33,598 bases of DNA from a virus. The stretch's first letter is position 1; every line of letters begins with the position of its first letter. A program made the position numbers and the translations under genes. The stretch is from IMG/VR virus record IMGVR_UViG_3300046474_000293, positions 1 to 33,598 of that record, one strand, 5' to 3'. The notes under the pieces were generated by a model that was not told the DNA's origin, made no database searches, and saw nothing but the letters and a program-made list of their open reading frames with translations. Shown one piece after another: positions 354 to 32,675 of this stretch.

Positions 354-572
354 TTAGAGCCAAAGCGCGCCTTGCAGTGATCTATCCGGGTGAGGCGGGA
401 CTGGTTTGACCGTTCCGGGTTGCATGATGATCTTGGCTACGGTTTCTAAGGACTTGAACGTGCAACTGCAGTTGATGTTCTGACACTGGTTATATCTTTC
501 TTTGGTATCTTTCGAGACTTGAAAACTACTGCGGGTATGCGCTGCGCCCCCACATAATGGACAGTTCATCAT
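354..572 (-). CDS. ogr: Ogr/Delta-type late gene activator (zinc finger)
   Basis: The product is 72 aa from ATG at 572, the same length as P2 Ogr, and switches on the phage late promoters by contacting RNA polymerase alpha. The zinc ligands are visible as C4, C7, C30 and C35 (CPLC then CQNINC), with the family block ERYNQCQNINCSCTF. A longer frame opens at 650, but the start at 572 has a GGAG 9 nt upstream and gives the family length. The gene is last in the leftward D operon and has a TATACT-like -10 about 35 bp upstream. A half-site resembling the presumed CI operator lies at 590-600, consistent with direct repression in the lysogen as for gene B of phage 186. Confidence 0.92.
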   Translation of the reverse strand: MMNCPLCGGAAHTRSSFQVSKDTKERYNQCQNINCSCTFKSLETVAKIIMQPGTVKPVPPHPDRSLQGALWL

Positions 573-589
573 TATTAAATACTCCGTTA

Positions 590-600
590 TTTGTACACAG
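590..600 (-). promoter_or_regulatory. candidate CI half-operator in front of ogr
   Basis: On the minus strand this reads CTGTGTACAAA, 9 of 11 matching the CTGTACACAAA half-site of the cox-cI operator (30017-30027). It lies between a TATACT-like -10 (minus strand, near 613-618) and the ogr start. In phage 186 CI also represses the promoter of the ogr homologue. The match is short, so this is a hypothesis. Confidence 0.35.
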
Positions 601-651
601 GTGGGAACTTGTGGCGAGTATATAGATAAATTGGCCCCAAAAGGAATCACT

Positions 652-7161: not shown

Positions 7162-7179
7162 TGTGTGGGAAGTGGTACA
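7162..7179. promoter_or_regulatory. predicted Ogr-binding site of the FI late promoter
   Basis: The sequence TGT-N12-ACA is the consensus for P2 Ogr/P4 Delta activators, which act from about -55. Its centre at 7170.5 predicts a start near 7115, giving a leader of about 24 nt before FI. Similar sites occur at 11119-11136 and 18145-18162. Confidence 0.65.
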
Positions 7180-10151: not shown

Positions 10152-10494
10152 TGTTCACCCCCGTTGATACCGACATAGAAACCGGTGAGCCGTCATCGCG
10201 CTGCCCGGCAATATCAACCTGCATTGAGCCATCAAAATCAGTCGTCAGGTTCACCGTATCAAGCCGGATACGTGGCTCCCATCGACTGAGGGCCGAATAG
10301 GTGGCCGCCATGACCTGCAGGCGCACCACATCATTTTGCGGCTGGTCAATCAGCACCGATAAAAGTGAACCGTATTCGCGTCGTGCCACCCTGCTACCCT
10401 CCGGCGTAATCAGAATGTCACGCACCGACTGGCGGATATGTTCAATATCGGTAATGGCTTCGCCGGTATCCCGGTTCATTCCCAGATACATCAT
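10138..10494 (-). CDS. W: gpW, baseplate wedge protein (gp25-like)
   Basis: The product is 118 aa (P2 W is 115), of the GPW/gp25 family. It has the conserved IRQSVRDILITPEGSRVARR segment and ends in a strand-rich region. Its ATG overlaps the V stop (TGATG), which implies coupled translation. Confidence 0.94.
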   Translation of the reverse strand: MMYLGMNRDTGEAITDIEHIRQSVRDILITPEGSRVARREYGSLLSVLIDQPQNDVVRLQVMAATYSALSRWEPRIRLDTVNLTTDFDGSMQVDIAGQRDDGSPVSMSVSTGVNSGSN

Positions 10495-11072
10495 CAGTGT
10501 GGCCCTCCGGTACTTGCACCGCCTTTTGCCACGCCATCATGCGTGTGACCGTCCGCCACCACGCCGTTAGATGTCATCGCCCCGCCGCCCTGCGTCACGC
10601 CGCCGTTAATGACAACTTCGCTGTTAATTTGCGTCTGGTCTGCGGTGACAATGAACGCGCCTGTTTTCAGCTCTATGCTGTCCGAGGCCTCAATCAGCAC
10701 GCTCTTTATGCCTTTTATCAGCCAGCGCCCGGTGGCGGGTTCATATTCAAACCAGCCGCCGTCCGGGTACTCCGTCACGCTGCCATCTTCAGAATCTGAA
10801 GGTGGCGGGAAAGCCTCGGAATACACGGCGGGCAGTGCAAAGGCGGTTTCAAGATTGCCGCCCAGGCTCAGCAGAACCACCTGCTCACCCACTGACGGTT
10901 TCCACCAGATGCGTGAATTACCTGCCCGTAATGTCAGCCAGTTAATCCAGTTGGTTTCAAGGTCGCCCGTTTTCACCCGACACAGCCATTTATCCTTATC
11001 CACTTCCGAGACGGTCCCGGTACGGATCAGGTTGGTGATAAGGCGCATGATTTCGGTCAGTTGTGCATTCAT
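10494..11072 (-). CDS. V: gpV, baseplate spike
   Basis: The product is 192 aa from the ATG at 11072 (199 aa from 11093); P2 gpV is 211. It is the trimeric membrane-piercing spike with an N-terminal OB fold (WLCRVKTGDLETNWINWLTL, SVGEQVVLLSLGG). A beta-helical C-terminus follows, ending in GHTHDGVAKGG, whose H-x-H would bind iron at the tip as in P2. The start at 11072 aligns best with P2 V (MN plus about 15 residues before IRTG). Neither start has a clear ribosome site. The Ogr site at 11119-11136 is 46-47 bp upstream. Confidence 0.92.
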   Translation of the reverse strand: MNAQLTEIMRLITNLIRTGTVSEVDKDKWLCRVKTGDLETNWINWLTLRAGNSRIWWKPSVGEQVVLLSLGGNLETAFALPAVYSEAFPPPSDSEDGSVTEYPDGGWFEYEPATGRWLIKGIKSVLIEASDSIELKTGAFIVTADQTQINSEVVINGGVTQGGGAMTSNGVVADGHTHDGVAKGGASTGGPH

Positions 11073-11118
11073 GCTGGCATTATGGGAATACATCAGCTAA
11101 TAATTTAGCAAAAATGAT

Positions 11119-11136
11119 TGTGCCAACAACTACACA
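11119..11136. promoter_or_regulatory. predicted Ogr-binding site between V and the HEPN gene
   Basis: TGT-N12-ACA lies between the divergent V and cargo genes. A centre at 11127.5 predicts a V transcript starting near 11072, where a CATAAT (11084-11079, minus) could be the -10. It shows that the late promoter of V was kept when the cargo gene was placed on its far side. Confidence 0.6.
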
Positions 11137-11147
11137 AGGAAAGAGAG

Positions 11148-12590
11148 ATGGCCGTTTTAAATCTTGAGGACCAAACGCTAACATTTAATTATGCAAATAC
11201 TTGCTTAACGAATGTTTTGTGTAATATAGAGGTTGAAGATGATGGACATTGGAATAAAATCAATATCATTTCAAAAGATGAATCCTTGACGGAAATTCAG
11301 GGCATATTATCAGTCAACGTTGAAATTGATTTCGCAAACCCAACCAGCGATTACGGAAAAAAAACCGTAATCAAAAACGCATCAGTCAGAGGATTCTCTG
11401 TAAGATTCGGCTCTCCAGCAAAATTTAGCTTTTCACTTTACCCGGAAGAAGTCTACCTTCATTACAAGACCCCAAATATTAAACATAAAAGAAAAGTATC
11501 CCTGAGTTACTTCATCAACAAATCACCGATGATAGCACCTTATTGCCGTCTAGAGCCTAGTGAAAACGGAAGCGTAACTGAAGATAAATCCCCCCCATTA
11601 AGACTAAGCTCCACCAATGGGATTAAATTGCATTCTGATGTTTTATTTACGTTTGCACTTAATGGGGACCACTTTAATTCAGAAAGATACCAACTTATAA
11701 CAACGACATTTTCCAGAACCAAAAATATCATTGATTACATTAACAACTCCATTTCCCGTGAAATAAATGACGTAATGCTTTTATCCTCACTTCTACATGA
11801 TAATAGAGTTTCATTCTTAAGCTGGAAAGCTGAATACTTTGGCAATACAGTTTTTTGCTACAAGAGCAATAAATTTAGAGCTGCTGATATAGCGGACACC
11901 TCTTACAGACATCTTATTGATGCCAATGAAGTAGAGGATTTTTATAACGTCACTACACAAATGCTTAAAGTCTCACTCTATAAGCCCTCGATAAAAAACG
12001 CAATAAACTCATTAATGATAAGTAGTAAAACTGTAGTGGAGCTTTCATATCTCTCCTACTTTCAGGCGTTAGAATCCATGATACTGACTTACAAAAGAAT
12101 CAAAGGGACCGAATTCATTCTTGAGAAAAATAAATTCAAAAAATTACGCCAAAACCTTGAGAAATCAATTTCATCAGAAATCCCTGACTGTTCTGACACC
12201 AGAGCAAAGATAAAATCAAAATTAGCTGAATTAAATAGAATTTCCTTGAGGGAGGCCGGTGAGGAATTTTTCAAAGAACTTAATATTAACATGCAAGGAT
12301 TATGGCCATTATTCGATAACAAACACGCCGAAATAACAGGCTTAGTTTCTTTAAGAAATGTTTTAATTCATGGCGATCTAATACCCTCAGCAAACTTCCA
12401 TAGCCTTGCTATTGCCTCTGAACATTTGAGAGTGCTGCTGATAAGATGCACATTCAGTCTTCTTGGATGGGATTGCGCCAGAACAAAAGTAAGTCCTGAA
12501 TATCTCATGCGTACCAATAATATTTTCCATGAGGACACTCTTAAAAAATCCCTAAGAGATCTGCACTCTTACTTCAAAAAAAATAATTAG
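11148..12590 (+). CDS. HEPN-domain cargo protein, ApeA-like (putative anti-phage RNase)
   Basis: The product is 480 aa from the ATG at 11148, which has AAGGAAAGAG just upstream; a TTG ten codons earlier is less likely and runs through the Ogr site. The C-terminal third is helical and carries R403-N-V-L-I-H408 (LRNVLIHGD), the R-x4-H motif of HEPN ribonucleases. It is preceded by ALESMILTYKRIKG and KSKLAELNRISLREA, which resemble the HEPN domain of ApeA abortive-infection proteins. The first 300 residues are strand-rich, as in the ApeA N-terminal domain. It lies against the late operon, is AT-rich and replaces nothing essential, so it is a cargo gene. The HEPN motif is seen; ApeA kinship is a judgement from memory and defence is inferred. 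Confidence 0.65.
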   Translation: MAVLNLEDQTLTFNYANTCLTNVLCNIEVEDDGHWNKINIISKDESLTEIQGILSVNVEIDFANPTSDYGKKTVIKNASVRGFSVRFGSPAKFSFSLYPEEVYLHYKTPNIKHKRKVSLSYFINKSPMIAPYCRLEPSENGSVTEDKSPPLRLSSTNGIKLHSDVLFTFALNGDHFNSERYQLITTTFSRTKNIIDYINNSISREINDVMLLSSLLHDNRVSFLSWKAEYFGNTVFCYKSNKFRAADIADTSYRHLIDANEVEDFYNVTTQMLKVSLYKPSIKNAINSLMISSKTVVELSYLSYFQALESMILTYKRIKGTEFILEKNKFKKLRQNLEKSISSEIPDCSDTRAKIKSKLAELNRISLREAGEEFFKELNINMQGLWPLFDNKHAEITGLVSLRNVLIHGDLIPSANFHSLAIASEHLRVLLIRCTFSLLGWDCARTKVSPEYLMRTNNIFHEDTLKKSLRDLHSYFKKNN

Positions 12591-12603
12591 CATCTTAATT
12601 ATT
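12582..12603. terminator. weak AT-rich bidirectional hairpin between convergent genes
   Basis: AATAATTA (12582-12589) pairs with TAATTATT (12596-12603) around a 6-nt loop and is preceded by a run of A. It spans the stop codons of the convergent HEPN gene and S. The stem is all A/T, so termination may be weak. Confidence 0.4.
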
Positions 12604-13045
12604 AAGTTAACCATTTTAGGAAAGTATTTTTCAACTGCATTTCAACATCTTTATTCAGGCCAAGCAGCGGACGCTCGGCATATTTCACCTCAACTCCGCG
12701 CCGGTTCACCGTGTCTCTAAGCCCGTAGTGATGCACGCGGGCCAGCCGCTGAACCTGCCCGGTAAAAGACACTTCAGCCCGATTAGCATTGGCCTGCGCC
12801 TTGAGGTACTTCGCTGTTTTCAGCTTGGTGAACATTTTCCTGCGAATACGACCTTTCTTCGTTCTGGCAGTCACGCGCTTTGGCTCCCATGCAGTACCGT
12901 CCGGCGCACGCTGTGCGGTGATGTTCGCCTGCTGAATCTTACGCACGTCCCGCGCCACTTCACGCAGCATCCGTGAGCGCTGGGCGGGTTCCAGCTGATC
13001 CAGCAATGCAGCCAGCCAGGCATCAACCTGCTGCAGATTATCCAT
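12602..13045 (-). CDS. S: gpS, tail completion protein
   Basis: The product is 147 aa (P2 S is 150). The conserved blocks are QRAPDGTAWEPKR, KKGRIRRKMFTKLKTAKYLK and EVSFTGQVQRLARVHHYGL. It acts with R in tail completion and joining. It overlaps R by 8 bp. The last 18 or so codons (12602 to about 12655) are AT-rich, unlike the rest of the gene, and border the HEPN cargo gene. Confidence 0.93.
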   Translation of the reverse strand: MDNLQQVDAWLAALLDQLEPAQRSRMLREVARDVRKIQQANITAQRAPDGTAWEPKRVTARTKKGRIRRKMFTKLKTAKYLKAQANANRAEVSFTGQVQRLARVHHYGLRDTVNRRGVEVKYAERPLLGLNKDVEMQLKNTFLKWLT

Positions 13046-18144: not shown

Positions 18145-18162
18145 TGTGGGGGAAACCACACA
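18145..18162. promoter_or_regulatory. predicted Ogr-binding site shared by divergent O and P
   Basis: TGT-N12-ACA, part of a longer dyad (TTGTGG...CCACACAA), lies in the 143-bp gap between O and P. Activation from -55 on either side would start transcripts near 18098 for O and near 18208 for P. P2 also has divergent Ogr-dependent promoters here. Confidence 0.65.
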
Positions 18163-21122: not shown

Positions 21123-22151
21123 TCATGGTCGAGAAATTGATACTTCAAACTTTGGACCAACGTTTGCGAGGATTATCCTTTTATCTGAACCTACCCAAAA
21201 CATCAATCTCAGCGCTTGGTGCCCCTCAGTAACATGTGTTCGAAAAGCCTTTAAACCATCTAATATTAATTGCTCCCTAGAATTTCCTGACTCCCTAAAT
21301 TTATTGACTGAGCTTTTAGGCTTCCTACATAAAACATGCACTATCGTTTCGAAAACCACAGATGAAAACTGTTGATTCCCGCCAGATTGATTCCTAATTA
21401 GTGACGCCAAGAAATCATGACCAATACTAAAATCTTCCCAACCTATTACACATGAAAGGTTATTTTTATCAATAAAAGACAAACAGCCACAAAATATTGC
21501 ACACTTTAAGGATACGTCATTATTTGCTTCAGAGTACAGCATCAGTGAATCAATACTTTTCAAAAAACCCCAAGCATTAGTATATGTTTTCACCTCGCAT
21601 GCACATACGCTTGAAATCCCTTCAGGAAGAATGGGATAAGATTCTCCAACTACCCCCCTAAGCGAAAACCCGTTAGACATAGAAAAAAACTCATCAGCCT
21701 GATTATAAAATATAGAGTAGTCGCCTTCCGATAATTTATTCCTTAGCATTAAATCCCTTAAGAAAGAAATAAAATATACTTTTCTTTTATCAGAAACTGA
21801 ATTAACTGAAGGACTAACCTCAAAGTTATCCCACTCAATTTCATGAGAAATAACTTGAGAGTCAAACTCGTCGATTATTAATAAAATCCCATTAATCAAT
21901 TTAACTACATCTTGTGGACTAAACACACATGAATCACCTTTTGGAAAGGCACCACTCAAAAGCCTATCACAAGGAAAAAAACCCTCTTCAGCCATTTTTA
22001 AAAGCATTAAAGTTTCAGATTTGATATCAATATCGCTGGATGAAATCACCTCTTTTAGAATCATCATCCCCTCAACGTAATCATTTACGTCAACATCTGA
22101 ACATATTAGAGGAGAAATGAAATATTCAAAATTAATAACCGACGTCATCAT
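21123..22151 (-). CDS. unrecognised cargo protein, partner of the AAA ATPase
   Basis: The product is 342 aa and I recognise no family. Its ATG (22151, or 22148) overlaps the end of the ATPase gene by 20 bp and has GAAGGA just upstream, so the two genes are translationally coupled and probably act together. The protein is acidic and Ser/Phe-rich, with no signal peptide or clear membrane span. The last 45 residues form a compact, conserved-looking block: K-A-F-R-T-H-V-T-x2-H-Q-A-L-R-L-M-F-W, then IILANVGPKFEVSI, with spaced His and Arg residues that could form an active site. It could be the effector of a two-gene defence system, but that is inference. It is AT-rich, unlike neighbouring late genes. 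Confidence 0.5.
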   Translation of the reverse strand: MMTSVINFEYFISPLICSDVDVNDYVEGMMILKEVISSSDIDIKSETLMLLKMAEEGFFPCDRLLSGAFPKGDSCVFSPQDVVKLINGILLIIDEFDSQVISHEIEWDNFEVSPSVNSVSDKRKVYFISFLRDLMLRNKLSEGDYSIFYNQADEFFSMSNGFSLRGVVGESYPILPEGISSVCACEVKTYTNAWGFLKSIDSLMLYSEANNDVSLKCAIFCGCLSFIDKNNLSCVIGWEDFSIGHDFLASLIRNQSGGNQQFSSVVFETIVHVLCRKPKSSVNKFRESGNSREQLILDGLKAFRTHVTEGHQALRLMFWVGSDKRIILANVGPKFEVSISRP

Positions 22152-24111
22152 CCATTCCTTCTGAGGCGATTTTTTTCCTTTTCTTACTGGCTTCCATCAA
22201 TATTTTTTCAATTTCCTTATCTGTTTGATCAAAGAAATCAGCAGGCCATTCTGGTATAGCACCAAAGTTATTTATTTCCACCTCTTTGAATATTGAACCA
22301 GTATCGTTCTTGCTGATAAAGTAAAGTGAAGACTTATCTAACCATCCATATTCATAGTCTTGAGCCACTCTCAGCCTTAGCCTATTTATCATATACTCAC
22401 TATGTGTCTCAATGATGCACTGACGCCCTGAAGCGGACATTATAAGAAATAAGTCACATAACTTTGACTGTACCTTAGGGTGTAAGTGTAACTCTGGCTG
22501 TTCAAATATTAAAACGTCCGATGACTGAGAATTTAAAAACATCAAAACTATAGGCAATACCTGGCTTACACCAACTCCAACATGAGTTAAATCCTGCCAT
22601 TTATCTTGCTTGGATGTCTTAACATAGAGTTCATAGCCAAGCTTGCCTTTATCAAAGGTACTCACCTCCTCGACAACTCCAAGAAAGGACAACCATTTAA
22701 TGCAAGCATCCTGTACCAAATCATATTTAATACTAAAAAAAAGCTTATCGTTAATGATTTCAGGACATGCGTAATGAATGTAGTTTTCTCTAATTCTATG
22801 TAAAAGTGAAGCAGTGAATTCCCCCTTTAGTCCAACCGTATTAGTATCATATGGACTTGATGAGTATACAGCCTGAGGTTCATTTCTCAGCGGCCCAAGA
22901 TATTTTATGCTTCTTGAGAATGAAAAGTTCATTGCATATGAAATATCATTTAACAAACTTGAGACAAAGTGGTCTATGGAAAATATTTTTTCAGAATTTA
23001 AATACCAAATATTTTGCAGGTGTTCCTTGTGTTTTTCCAAAAGAGTCATTATATTTTTATGTTTTTTATCATCTAATGAATTAACCCAAAATAACCATTC
23101 TTCAATATTAATTAATTCGTTGTAAAAACTGCTAGGCAAATCAGAAGATTGAAGAGGGTAATTTATATTAACAAAGCTATTCTTGAACTGCTCTAGTATT
23201 TTCTCAGCATTTGTAGGCAAAGCTGAATTAGCATAGGATAAGCCAGAATTTTTCGCCTTCAGCTTTTTATTATTATTAATAATATCTAAGACATTTTCGG
23301 GCAATTCTATACCCTCAAGTAATTGCTGCCTATCGTTTAAAATAAGATTATAAACCTCTCTGGAAAACTCCTTGGGTATATATAAATCATTGAAATCTAT
23401 CTCGTCACTATAATAATTCTCATAGTCTTTATTGCTTCGCCCACCTTTTACCAAAATATTTATAATTTCGTGACTTATCTTTTTTGTTTTATCATATTTA
23501 ATATTCATTAGAGTGGGAATTAGCTCACCCGTACTCACTAGCCCATCTATTTTATAGTTAGGATATTTTTTATTAAGCTCGGTGCTTTCGCTTGTATCAA
23601 ACTGGACAATTTCATAATCAACCTCTTTTAATTCATTGTAATTATCAGGTAATTTAAAATGAATCACATCAATTTTTTTATCATTACTTTCGGATTTTTT
23701 AGTTATGGAGTATTTAGCAGATATTATTAAAGGATGATACTCCTCATCAATTTTTGCGAAGCCCCTATCCCGCCGACCTAAAATTAACTCACAACTTATA
23801 AACTCTATAGAACTATCGCGTAGGAAAAAATCATCCCCAACTTCAAATGAAAAACCTATTGTTATTTGATTACTCTTTGAATCATGTTTTCTTATATCAC
23901 TGTATGACCCGAGACGGATAAGATCGCCATTGAGAACAACACCATCGCCTTCAAATTTATTTGAAAAAGTCTGTGCAAGCATCAAGATAACTTGGATCAA
24001 CGAACTTTTTCCACTACTGTTAGCACCGCAAAGGTAAGAACATGGGTTAAGTGTAATGGAGTGGGGCATATCCAATGTTTTAAAGTTATTAACAAATATA
24101 TTTCTTATCAT
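22132..24111 (-). CDS. AAA/ABC-type ATPase with DUF3696-like C-terminus (putative defence)
   Basis: The product is 659 aa. Walker A is GANSSGKSS (residues 29-37). The far C-terminal half has an ABC-like signature GVGVSQVLP, Walker B VLIFEQPELHLHP and the switch histidine in IIETHSEYMINRL. It ends in IPEWPADFFDQTDKEIEKIL, typical of DUF3696 ATPases, which resemble OLD and SMC/RecF-type enzymes. No TOPRIM nuclease is visible in it, so any nuclease or toxin would come from the coupled gene. GAGG lies 5 nt before ATG. It sits between cos and Q, near where P2 carries tin and old. AT-rich composition marks it as acquired. ATPase identity is sure; a defence role is inferred. Confidence 0.8.
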   Translation of the reverse strand: MIRNIFVNNFKTLDMPHSITLNPCSYLCGANSSGKSSLIQVILMLAQTFSNKFEGDGVVLNGDLIRLGSYSDIRKHDSKSNQITIGFSFEVGDDFFLRDSSIEFISCELILGRRDRGFAKIDEEYHPLIISAKYSITKKSESNDKKIDVIHFKLPDNYNELKEVDYEIVQFDTSESTELNKKYPNYKIDGLVSTGELIPTLMNIKYDKTKKISHEIINILVKGGRSNKDYENYYSDEIDFNDLYIPKEFSREVYNLILNDRQQLLEGIELPENVLDIINNNKKLKAKNSGLSYANSALPTNAEKILEQFKNSFVNINYPLQSSDLPSSFYNELINIEEWLFWVNSLDDKKHKNIMTLLEKHKEHLQNIWYLNSEKIFSIDHFVSSLLNDISYAMNFSFSRSIKYLGPLRNEPQAVYSSSPYDTNTVGLKGEFTASLLHRIRENYIHYACPEIINDKLFFSIKYDLVQDACIKWLSFLGVVEEVSTFDKGKLGYELYVKTSKQDKWQDLTHVGVGVSQVLPIVLMFLNSQSSDVLIFEQPELHLHPKVQSKLCDLFLIMSASGRQCIIETHSEYMINRLRLRVAQDYEYGWLDKSSLYFISKNDTGSIFKEVEINNFGAIPEWPADFFDQTDKEIEKILMEASKKRKKIASEGMDDDVGY

Positions 24112-30675: not shown

Positions 30676-31716
30676 GTGTCTGTTAGAAAGCTTGATAGCG
30701 GTAAGTGGCTGTGTGAATGCTACCCTGCCGGACGTTCTGGACGCAGGGTTAGAAAGCAGTTCTCAACGAAAGGCGAGGCTGTTGCGTTCGAAAAGCACAC
30801 CATGTCTGAGACTGACGCTAAGCCCTGGCTTGGTGAGAAAGATGATACCCGTCTCTTAAGCGAACTGATCCAACTGTGGTGGGAACTGCATGGCGTCACA
30901 CTTGCTGACGGCAAAAACAAGAAATTACGCTTTCAAAATTTAAACAGAACTTGTGAAGCCCTTGGTGATCCCATCGCTGCTGACCTTACCCCTTTCGACA
31001 TATCAGAATATCGAAGAAAGAGAATTAGCGGTGAAGTCTTTAGCAAAAAACGTAACCGGTTTAGATTACCGGCCGCGCTTTCTACAATAAATATCGAATG
31101 CACTTACCTCACATCCGTATACAACAAGTTAAAAAAACTTGGTCATATTAAATATCCCAATCCTATCGAGAATGTTCCGCCATTCAGGATTAAAGAAAAA
31201 GAGCTATCATTCCTGAACATTGCCGAGGTGAACGCACTACTCAAGGCTTGTGAGGCATATGACAATGCCGATTTGACCACTATCGTGAAGATTTGCCTGA
31301 GCACTGGCTGCAGGTGGGGTGAGGCTTTGAACCTAAGAGGTTCTCAGGTCATCCCATACAAAATCAATTTCGCTTATACCAAAAGCGGTAAGAATCGATC
31401 CGTACCAATCACCAAAGAGCTGTTTGGCGAGATCAATGAAAAGCAAGGAGCGCTTTTTAAAGATGTGACCAAGCGGTTCAATACCGTCCTTAAGATGGCT
31501 AATATTGAACTGCCTCATGGTCAGAAAACGCATGTTTTGCGTCATACGTTTGCTAGCCACTTCATGATGAACAGCGGAAATATTCTGGTGCTAAGACAAA
31601 TTCTTGGCCACACAGACATCAAAATGACGATGATTTACGCTCACTTTTCGCCCGATCATTTAGAAGACGCAACGACAAAAAATCCGCTTTCGATGCTAGC
31701 TAAAAGTAATATTTGA
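30676..31716 (+). CDS. int: tyrosine integrase
   Basis: The product is 346 aa from a GTG start, 8 bp after cI and probably on its transcript. The catalytic residues are R213 (CRWGEAL), K236, H286/R289 (HVLRHTFASHF), H312 (LGHTDIK) and Y321 (MIYAH). The N-terminal arm-binding domain (SVRKLDSGKWLCECYPAGRSG) is of the P2 type. The last residues (SMLAKSNI) differ from those of a second copy of the integrase tail at 32807-32904 (ALIDVTAD), so the 3' end was exchanged when the next gene arrived. Confidence 0.95.
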   Translation: MSVRKLDSGKWLCECYPAGRSGRRVRKQFSTKGEAVAFEKHTMSETDAKPWLGEKDDTRLLSELIQLWWELHGVTLADGKNKKLRFQNLNRTCEALGDPIAADLTPFDISEYRRKRISGEVFSKKRNRFRLPAALSTINIECTYLTSVYNKLKKLGHIKYPNPIENVPPFRIKEKELSFLNIAEVNALLKACEAYDNADLTTIVKICLSTGCRWGEALNLRGSQVIPYKINFAYTKSGKNRSVPITKELFGEINEKQGALFKDVTKRFNTVLKMANIELPHGQKTHVLRHTFASHFMMNSGNILVLRQILGHTDIKMTMIYAHFSPDHLEDATTKNPLSMLAKSNI

Positions 31717-31775
31717 ATAATATTCTTTCGTATTATTTAAATGAATTTATTAAAAAATTTAGCGAGGGTGAATAT

Positions 31776-32675
31776 ATGACAGATTCTAGAAAACAAAATC
31801 CTGATTGGTTTAACTTCCAAGAAGAAATATGCGAGCATTTTATCAACCTTGGTGCAAATGCATCTACAAATGTTAAAGTTGACGGTGTAAGAGGTCCATC
31901 AAATATCGATGTCCTTGTAGAGTCAAAACACCTAGGTACAGATTTTAAATGGTTAGTAGAAGCCAAGCACTGGAAGAGTAAAGTTACAAAAGAAATAGTA
32001 CATGCTTTTTCTAACGTTGTGCAAAATACTGGTTCAGATCGAGGGTTTATTATTTCAAAAGTTGGCTTTCAATCTGGAGCGTTTGAAGCAGCAACCATGT
32101 CAAATATAAGTCTTTATACATTTGAAGAACTTAAAAAAAATACAAACCATTTATTTTTGACGAACATACTTAAACAATATTTGAACAGAACAATAATCTT
32201 AAGCACAAGGTATTGGTCTCATGATAAGTCAGTGAGAATCAAGTATAAATTAAGATTTGAAATTTGGGATTTTGAAGAGATTTTCTCATGTGGTGTTTTA
32301 CTGGGGATGATCGCAGAGATAATTACACGAGATGAAATTACTTACCCGTTTACCATGTTAGATTTTAAAGAATCCCCCATCAATACGATCAATAGTTTTA
32401 ATGACTTAATAAACTGGCTAAATTTCAACCTAAACAATTTAGATAATAAAATTTTGCAAGCGGAAATACTAATGTTTAAAAATAACGACTTCAGGCCTGA
32501 ATATAGTTATTTAACTCCAGATGTGATGTTGATCGCTAAACAGAAAAAATTCGATAGCATATTTGACTCAAGTATTATCCCTGAGAAAGAATTAAAATTA
32601 TTAATGAATGCTAGGGAAGAATTAATTAGGTGGAAAGAATTCGAGAAGCAATATGATAAAAAAAATCCGTTGTAA
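31776..32675 (+). CDS. Mrr-like PD-(D/E)xK endonuclease, cargo gene
   Basis: The product is 299 aa from ATG at 31776, which has GAGGG 8 nt upstream; the frame extends to a TTG at 31713 overlapping int. Residues 12-110 are the nuclease fold: E20, then D45 in SNIDVLVES, and E62-A-K64 in WLVEAKHW, followed by the helix with VHAFSNVVQNTGSDRGFIIS and GFQSGAFEAA. This is the Mrr/type IV restriction catalytic layout. The C-terminal two thirds are AT-rich with no recognised domain (possible target or sensor module). It lies between int and attR, where accessory genes load in P2-like phages. The catalytic core is clear; the anti-phage role is inferred. Confidence 0.75.
   Translation: MTDSRKQNPDWFNFQEEICEHFINLGANASTNVKVDGVRGPSNIDVLVESKHLGTDFKWLVEAKHWKSKVTKEIVHAFSNVVQNTGSDRGFIISKVGFQSGAFEAATMSNISLYTFEELKKNTNHLFLTNILKQYLNRTIILSTRYWSHDKSVRIKYKLRFEIWDFEEIFSCGVLLGMIAEIITRDEITYPFTMLDFKESPINTINSFNDLINWLNFNLNNLDNKILQAEILMFKNNDFRPEYSYLTPDVMLIAKQKKFDSIFDSSIIPEKELKLLMNAREELIRWKEFEKQYDKKNPL

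Follow-up and report, generated by a model that had tools for sequence, protein, structure and literature searches.

Tha, the gp03 protein of Staphylococcus phage 80alpha, is a prophage HEPN RNase that is triggered by tail proteins and shut off at induction (PMC11087260). The DSR2 defense is likewise triggered by phage tail proteins (PMC10981675), and Tai and Tab act on phage tail proteins (PMC11364771; PMC10884400). ApeA is likewise an anti-phage HEPN protein, encoded by one gene. Its N-terminal domain, ApeA_NTD1, was described in 2013 as a poorly conserved region of about 300 aa, composed mostly of beta strands and followed by the HEPN domain (PMC3710099). P2-like phages are known to vary in three regions, namely orf30, Z/fun, and tin-old at the right end (PMC3091744). 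Defense hotspots of these phages have been described at A-Q (PMC9122126) and at fun, referred to as hotspot 2 (PMC9519451). For the remaining region, P2 orf30 was published as a gene of unknown function (PMC3091744), and phage R18C carries a different gene at this position (PMC6823313).

The stretch of DNA analyzed here (the window) is a complete viral record of 33,598 bases from a P2-like phage. An open reading frame of 480 codons runs on the plus strand from an ATG at 11148 to a stop codon ending at 12590, antisense to the late operon, between the minus-strand genes for the baseplate protein gpV (10494-11093, core start codon at 11070-11072, with tblastn relatives in 117 loci) and the tail completion protein gpS (12602-13045), whose stop codon is 11 bp from that of the HEPN gene. 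This agrees with an earlier reading made from the sequence only, which had placed a 480-aa plus-strand gene between S and V, running counter to the late operon. A Shine-Dalgarno-like sequence, AAGGAAAG, precedes the ATG (11136-11143, plus strand), and ACAAGG ahead of the gene is common to 10 homologues; an alternative in-frame start, TTG at 11118, would give a protein of 490 aa. The GC content of the gene is 35.6%, compared to 52.1% for the remainder of the record, 54.7% for S, and 56.2% for V. Over its full length, the protein matches a PHROG family of unknown function (phrog_22870, E = 6.3e-50), PADLOC returned no family for it at E ≤ 1, and Rfam contains no structured RNA matching the locus.

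The C-terminal half of the protein is a HEPN domain of the ApeA type. Pfam HEPN_Apea (PF18739) matches aa 302-443 with 34.7 bits (E = 2.8e-8), above the curated cut-off of 24.4, and the Pfam HEPN model was matched independently by only two of eight relatives. The putative RNase active site, R403-N404-x3-H408, lies within LRNVLIHGD at 12354-12371 on the plus strand (R403, 12354-12356; H408, 12369-12371), and R403-N404-x3-H408-G409 is invariant in all 10 aligned relatives. LRNVLIHGD is therefore not a chance motif, given this invariance and a Pfam score above the cut-off. When modeled alone, aa 240-480 fold by themselves (pLDDT 85.0), and the predicted helical bundle, as delimited by the Pfam match, the separate model, and VIA-align, spans aa 276-441 (11973-12470, plus strand). 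Comparison of this model to solved structures with VIA-align returned HEPN proteins in all of rows 1-13 (Z 9.1 to 5.0), including HEPN-MNT toxins, Csm6 proteins, another HEPN protein, and AbiV (Z 5.0), followed by an unrelated designed bundle as the first non-HEPN row (Z 4.8). The best row was that of HEPN-MNT toxins with the motif within the aligned span (Z 9.1, 2.7 Å, 114 aa), although Z values below 13 are weak for helical bundles in general. Since Foldseek by itself returned nothing below E = 0.001 for the aa 240-480 model, the evidence for the fold consists of the uniform top VIA-align rows, the Pfam match, and the motif. The HEPN ribonuclease domain, LRNVLIHGD, and the numbering of R403 and H408 had all been given correctly in the sequence-only reading, which took the lack of a HEPN four-helix bundle around these two residues as a result that would speak against it; the predicted model contains this bundle. 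On the basis of the domain and its motif, the protein would act as an RNase.

The N-terminal half is predicted to resemble the tail-tube proteins of phages. In the full-length AlphaFold2 model (pLDDT 83.9), a beta-rich domain of aa 4-189 (11157-11714, plus strand) is followed by a helix, a beta hairpin, and the HEPN helices. Within this part, a barrel of the Hcp/tail-tube type is predicted for approximately aa 7-107, joined by strands of aa 223-239, and the strand order over aa 4-107 (b-b-b-helix-b-b-b-b) fits the Hcp/tail-tube group. The best VIA-align row for the N-terminal domain was Hcp1 (4hkh) with Z 10.9 and an rmsd of 2.5 Å over 112 residues, a value to be read with the caution that Hcp-like barrels are a common arrangement and that PilZ proteins receive Z of about 7. 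Rows 1-26, and nearly all of the first 33, were Hcp, phage tail-tube or tail proteins, or baseplate proteins. Neither Pfam nor PHROG contains a tail-tube match for the protein, and searches of the PDB found no sequence match to the tail-tube fold. Since no sequence method sees the relation, it is one of predicted fold. A search of BFVD gave no match at E = 0.001. The N-terminal part had earlier been suggested as a possible infection sensor, and the separate, Hcp-like N-terminal domain of the predicted model is consistent with this suggestion. Two other resemblances were examined and set aside. PilZ-like domains (MrkH, PlzA) were matched by Foldseek at E = 6e-4 but with an rmsd of 18 Å, and with Z of about 7 they ranked below the Hcp/tail-tube proteins. 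A likeness to exfoliative toxin (phmmer against the PDB, E = 0.23) is weak and backed by neither a HEPN nor a profile search, and was taken as chance.

Relatives of the HEPN protein are found almost only in the S-V slot of P2-like phages. Profile searches of IMG/VR identified 12 contigs with relatives, the aligned proteins being 25-48% identical to the window protein, and in all 12 the gene is located between S and V and antisense to the late genes. No match was obtained by tblastn of the protein in 50,697 phage and 72,556 plasmid records, by blastn of the gene with its borders in 5,426 E. coli genomes, or with a relative as the query in the phage records. Profiles were needed because single-sequence scans of the viral and genome contigs found no relative. 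As far as these sequence searches reach, the family is rare in cultured collections. Among the bacterial genomes searched (392 of the family, 369 of the class, and 398 of the phylum, a sampling rather than full coverage), the clear match was a P2-like prophage of Erwinia mallotivora, which was also in the viral set, and the family-level search gave in addition one very weak partial match. Outside P2-like phages, there were a short fragment beside transposase genes and a protein of 21% identity in a non-P2 chromosomal setting. The latter, a 487-aa chromosomal protein (L143, 6412-7875, genome G1008) that aligns over aa 128-449 and has no P2-like context, is a possible cellular cousin of the family.

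The two halves of the protein have diverged at different rates, the N-terminal one being the faster. Identity to the window protein was lower in the N-terminal part (15-44%) than in the HEPN part (34-56%) in every one of nine comparisons (for example, 18% versus 43% in L094), a pattern to be expected if the N-terminal part is a sensor engaged in an arms race. The ratio dN/dS is 0.12-0.52 in four informative pairs, and this purifying selection indicates that function has been kept. In phage L043, the V, W, J, I, R, M, and N proteins are 94-100% identical to those of the window phage, and the HEPN protein is only about 40% identical, and so S-V alleles turn over much faster than the neighboring genes. 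Judging from this turnover and from its low GC content, the HEPN gene is cargo. In a comparison of S (12602-13045) with L043/L130, the S protein shares only 84% identity with that of L043, compared to 94-100% for its neighbors, as though S had been replaced along with the cargo next to it.

The S-V gap had been considered to lie outside the known moron sites, which is not the case, as P2 orf30 (NC_001895, 9439-10224) is located there and the region is recorded as variable (PMC3091744; PMC6823313). P2 orf30 is annotated as nonessential, occupies S-V, and is antisense. The HEPN gene shares both this location, between S and the V promoter, and the orientation with P2 orf30, although it is 1443 bp long and P2 orf30 is 786 bp. 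In a survey of 114 S-V gaps besides that of the window, 74 were occupied and 40 empty, in a selected sample that includes four E. coli loci chosen for being occupied. The cargo comprises 40 protein clusters, of which 33 are antisense and 7 sense (examples within L002-L122 are L005 3767-5092, L051, L044, L053, and L006). It includes pairs of AAA and HNH proteins with Septu PtuA matches, AriA-like ATPases with DUF4435 (PARIS-type), SIR2, TIR, AIPR, FRG, DUF2971, and DUF5677 proteins, and EcoRII restriction-modification. HEPN-type genes seem to recur in the slot, with R-x4-H motifs (RHSLFH, RNNIVH) in further S-V cargo. A 594-aa S-V cargo protein has a PADLOC ApeA match (L030 4188-5969, 1.2e-10), and two other cargo families carry R-x4-H, namely a 304-aa family in six loci (L112 5048-5959, minus strand, and five others) and a 170-aa protein (L039 4484-4993). 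The A-Q (tin/old) and fun/Z hotspots also hold accessory defense genes of P2-like phages, and S-V looks like a third defense slot, the other two being those described in the available text of PMC9122126 and PMC9519451.

The upstream border of the HEPN gene is formed by a regulatory site of the late operon. A candidate late-activator (Ogr) box of the V promoter with the pattern TGT-N12-ACA is located at 11119-11136. It abuts the Shine-Dalgarno sequence and leaves 11 bp to the HEPN start codon, and the HEPN gene is thus placed as cargo of the orf30 locus is, with S on one side and the Ogr box of the V promoter on the other. Of 116 S-V loci, empty gaps included, 113 have a TGT-N12-ACA box some 64 bp ahead of the V start. 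The annotated activator site at pV of P2 is in the equivalent place but deviates from the exact pattern. Of the 12 homologous genes compared, 10 have the box 29-33 bp ahead of the start codon and one has it 58 bp ahead, and in the last, a damaged or badly assembled copy, it was not found. The window phage encodes its own Ogr-like late transcription activator (354-650, minus strand; Pfam Ogr_Delta, E = 2.5e-20). The window contains five TGT-N12-ACA matches in total, which is no more than chance, and the argument for the box is therefore one of position, not number. Two of the other four boxes are at presumed late promoters, at 7162-7179 (F, upstream of FI) and 18145-18162 (between O and P). Within 10900-12750, neither intrinsic terminators nor sigma-70 promoters occur beyond the chance rate, and the V-HEPN intergenic region has no consensus sigma-70 promoter, so that the promoter positions and antisense read-through are conjectural. 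A HEPN promoter within the V-HEPN gap must overlap the V promoter region. Given that the start site of the HEPN gene and the Ogr box for V overlap, Ogr should switch the HEPN gene off, and the gene is probably silenced when Ogr fires the late promoters.

Taken together with the low GC content of this cargo and a slot shared with Septu-type, PARIS-type, and other defense-type genes, the HEPN protein is probably a single-gene abortive-infection RNase, carried by the prophage against competing phages and active in the lysogen. Defense by a HEPN RNase is well supported as a kind of function; the defense role of this particular gene is one that we infer. In the lysogen, the HEPN protein would be made from a promoter in the short V-HEPN intergenic region, and its N-terminal beta-barrel half would serve as a sensor that holds the protein inactive. 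Binding of a product of an incoming phage to the sensor would then activate the RNase. Tail or baseplate proteins would be the likeliest trigger, and are possibly what is sensed, because the sensor is predicted to have a tail-tube fold and because Tha and DSR2 are triggered by tail proteins. The HEPN domain would function as a dimeric, metal-independent RNase that cuts RNA and stops both phage and cell. At induction, when the RNase of the phage itself must not fire, Ogr binding and the antisense late transcription would turn the HEPN gene off. A more specific version, which we regard as tentative and rather doubtful, is that a captured, tail-tube-like domain of the Hcp fold acts as bait, to which subunits of the tail tube or baseplate hub of the invader bind or with which they co-assemble. 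This would bring two HEPN domains together into an active RNase, with Ogr, the activator of the tail genes of the phage itself, preventing suicide from its position on the HEPN start site. If true, this would amount to a one-gene tail-assembly alarm wired to the late-gene switch of the phage itself.

The proposed abortive-infection RNase resembles Tha in being prophage cargo with an N-terminal sensor and a C-terminal HEPN domain containing R-N-x3-H. On the other hand, hhalign to Tha-1 gave a probability of 0.2%, with no detectable sequence relation, and Tha has 301 aa compared to 480 aa. The off-switch also differs, as Tha is controlled by ith, an overlapping antisense inhibitor gene, whereas the candidate switch of the window HEPN gene is the Ogr box; antisense ORFs of at least 45 aa inside the HEPN gene, considered as candidates for an Ith-like inhibitor, are not conserved in place among homologues. 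DSR2, Tai, and Tab share with the proposed system a tail protein as trigger or target. However, their effectors are different, and they have a tail protein as ligand, in contrast to the window protein, in which it is the sensor that is predicted to be tail-like.

The protein had been likened to ApeA in the sequence-only reading, which stands for the HEPN domain, of the ApeA type by Pfam, and not for the N-terminal half. Both proteins are encoded by a single gene and combine a C-terminal HEPN_Apea domain containing R-x4-H with a largely beta N-terminal part of about 300 aa. However, a sequence test with Pfam (E ≤ 1) found no ApeA_NTD1 (PF18862) in any of eight members, these being the window protein and seven of its relatives, and hhalign against four ApeA_NTD1 proteins from other genomes gave a probability of 0.3%, a negligible profile similarity in which only the HEPN motif region was aligned and both alignments were shallow. 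The N-terminal half may nevertheless be a highly diverged ApeA_NTD1 with ApeA-like action, in which case its tail-tube likeness would be coincidental or common to all ApeA proteins. The layout is the same, the published description of ApeA_NTD1 fits in outline (PMC3710099), and the domain positions are similar in an ApeA protein (L146; N-terminal domain 49-283, HEPN 312-454, compared to 302-443 for the window HEPN domain). Moreover, one of 10 relatives matches the PADLOC family Cas13-ApeA at 1.8e-6. The eight members without a detected PF18862 and the hhalign result speak against this, and a divergent ApeA is rather unlikely.

The remaining alternatives assign the protein a role other than that of a defense RNase. 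The close coupling to the V promoter region and the strict S-V location of the family would also suit a lytic function, in which the RNase would, for instance, set the timing of the late genes or block host translation at induction. This is improbable, as the slot is empty or holds unrelated genes in most P2-like phages, so that no lytic function is required there, while P2 orf30 is annotated as nonessential and the antisense orientation opposes late transcription. The predicted tail-tube/Hcp fold raises the question of whether the N-terminal domain poisons the tails of competitors, as Tai and Tab do, with the HEPN domain being structural or vestigial; prophage-encoded tail blockers do exist (PMC11364771; PMC10884400). 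However, the catalytic residues of the HEPN domain are invariant and the HEPN half is the more conserved, which argues that catalysis matters and leaves interference with tail assembly very unlikely. Equally hard to credit is a toxin of a toxin-antitoxin or addiction module that stabilizes the prophage. The nearest match of its predicted HEPN fold is the toxin of HEPN-MNT pairs, but there is no partner gene in the tight space between S, 11 bp from the HEPN stop, and the Ogr box that the start abuts, and the antisense ORFs inside the HEPN gene are not conserved among homologues.

As prophage defense cargo with a HEPN effector, the proposed abortive-infection RNase is ordinary in kind. It is unusual in its predicted tail-tube-like sensor, in being confined almost exclusively to one slot in one orientation, and in having its start site on the late-activator box of its own phage. 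The family adds a phage-borne HEPN effector in which the sensor half is predicted to be like the tail tube, a structure that several known defenses detect, and the orf30 slot, of unknown function in the literature found, holds many defense-marked genes beside the A-Q and fun hotspots. The arrangement bears on the general question of how a prophage with a suicide RNase avoids killing itself at induction.

The window phage carries further AT-rich cargo. In the classical A-Q (tin/old) hotspot, two genes on the minus strand (21123-24111, 33-35% GC) encode a 659-aa AAA_15/AAA_21-DUF3696 ATPase (PADLOC NsnB, E = 2e-69) and a 342-aa protein with no Pfam match, and are probably a second defense system. 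Directly downstream of the integrase gene, a plus-strand gene (31713-32675, 30.7% GC) encodes a protein of 320 aa that contains a restriction endonuclease domain of the Mrr type (Mrr_cat, E = 1e-13) and is a candidate for a third defense cargo.
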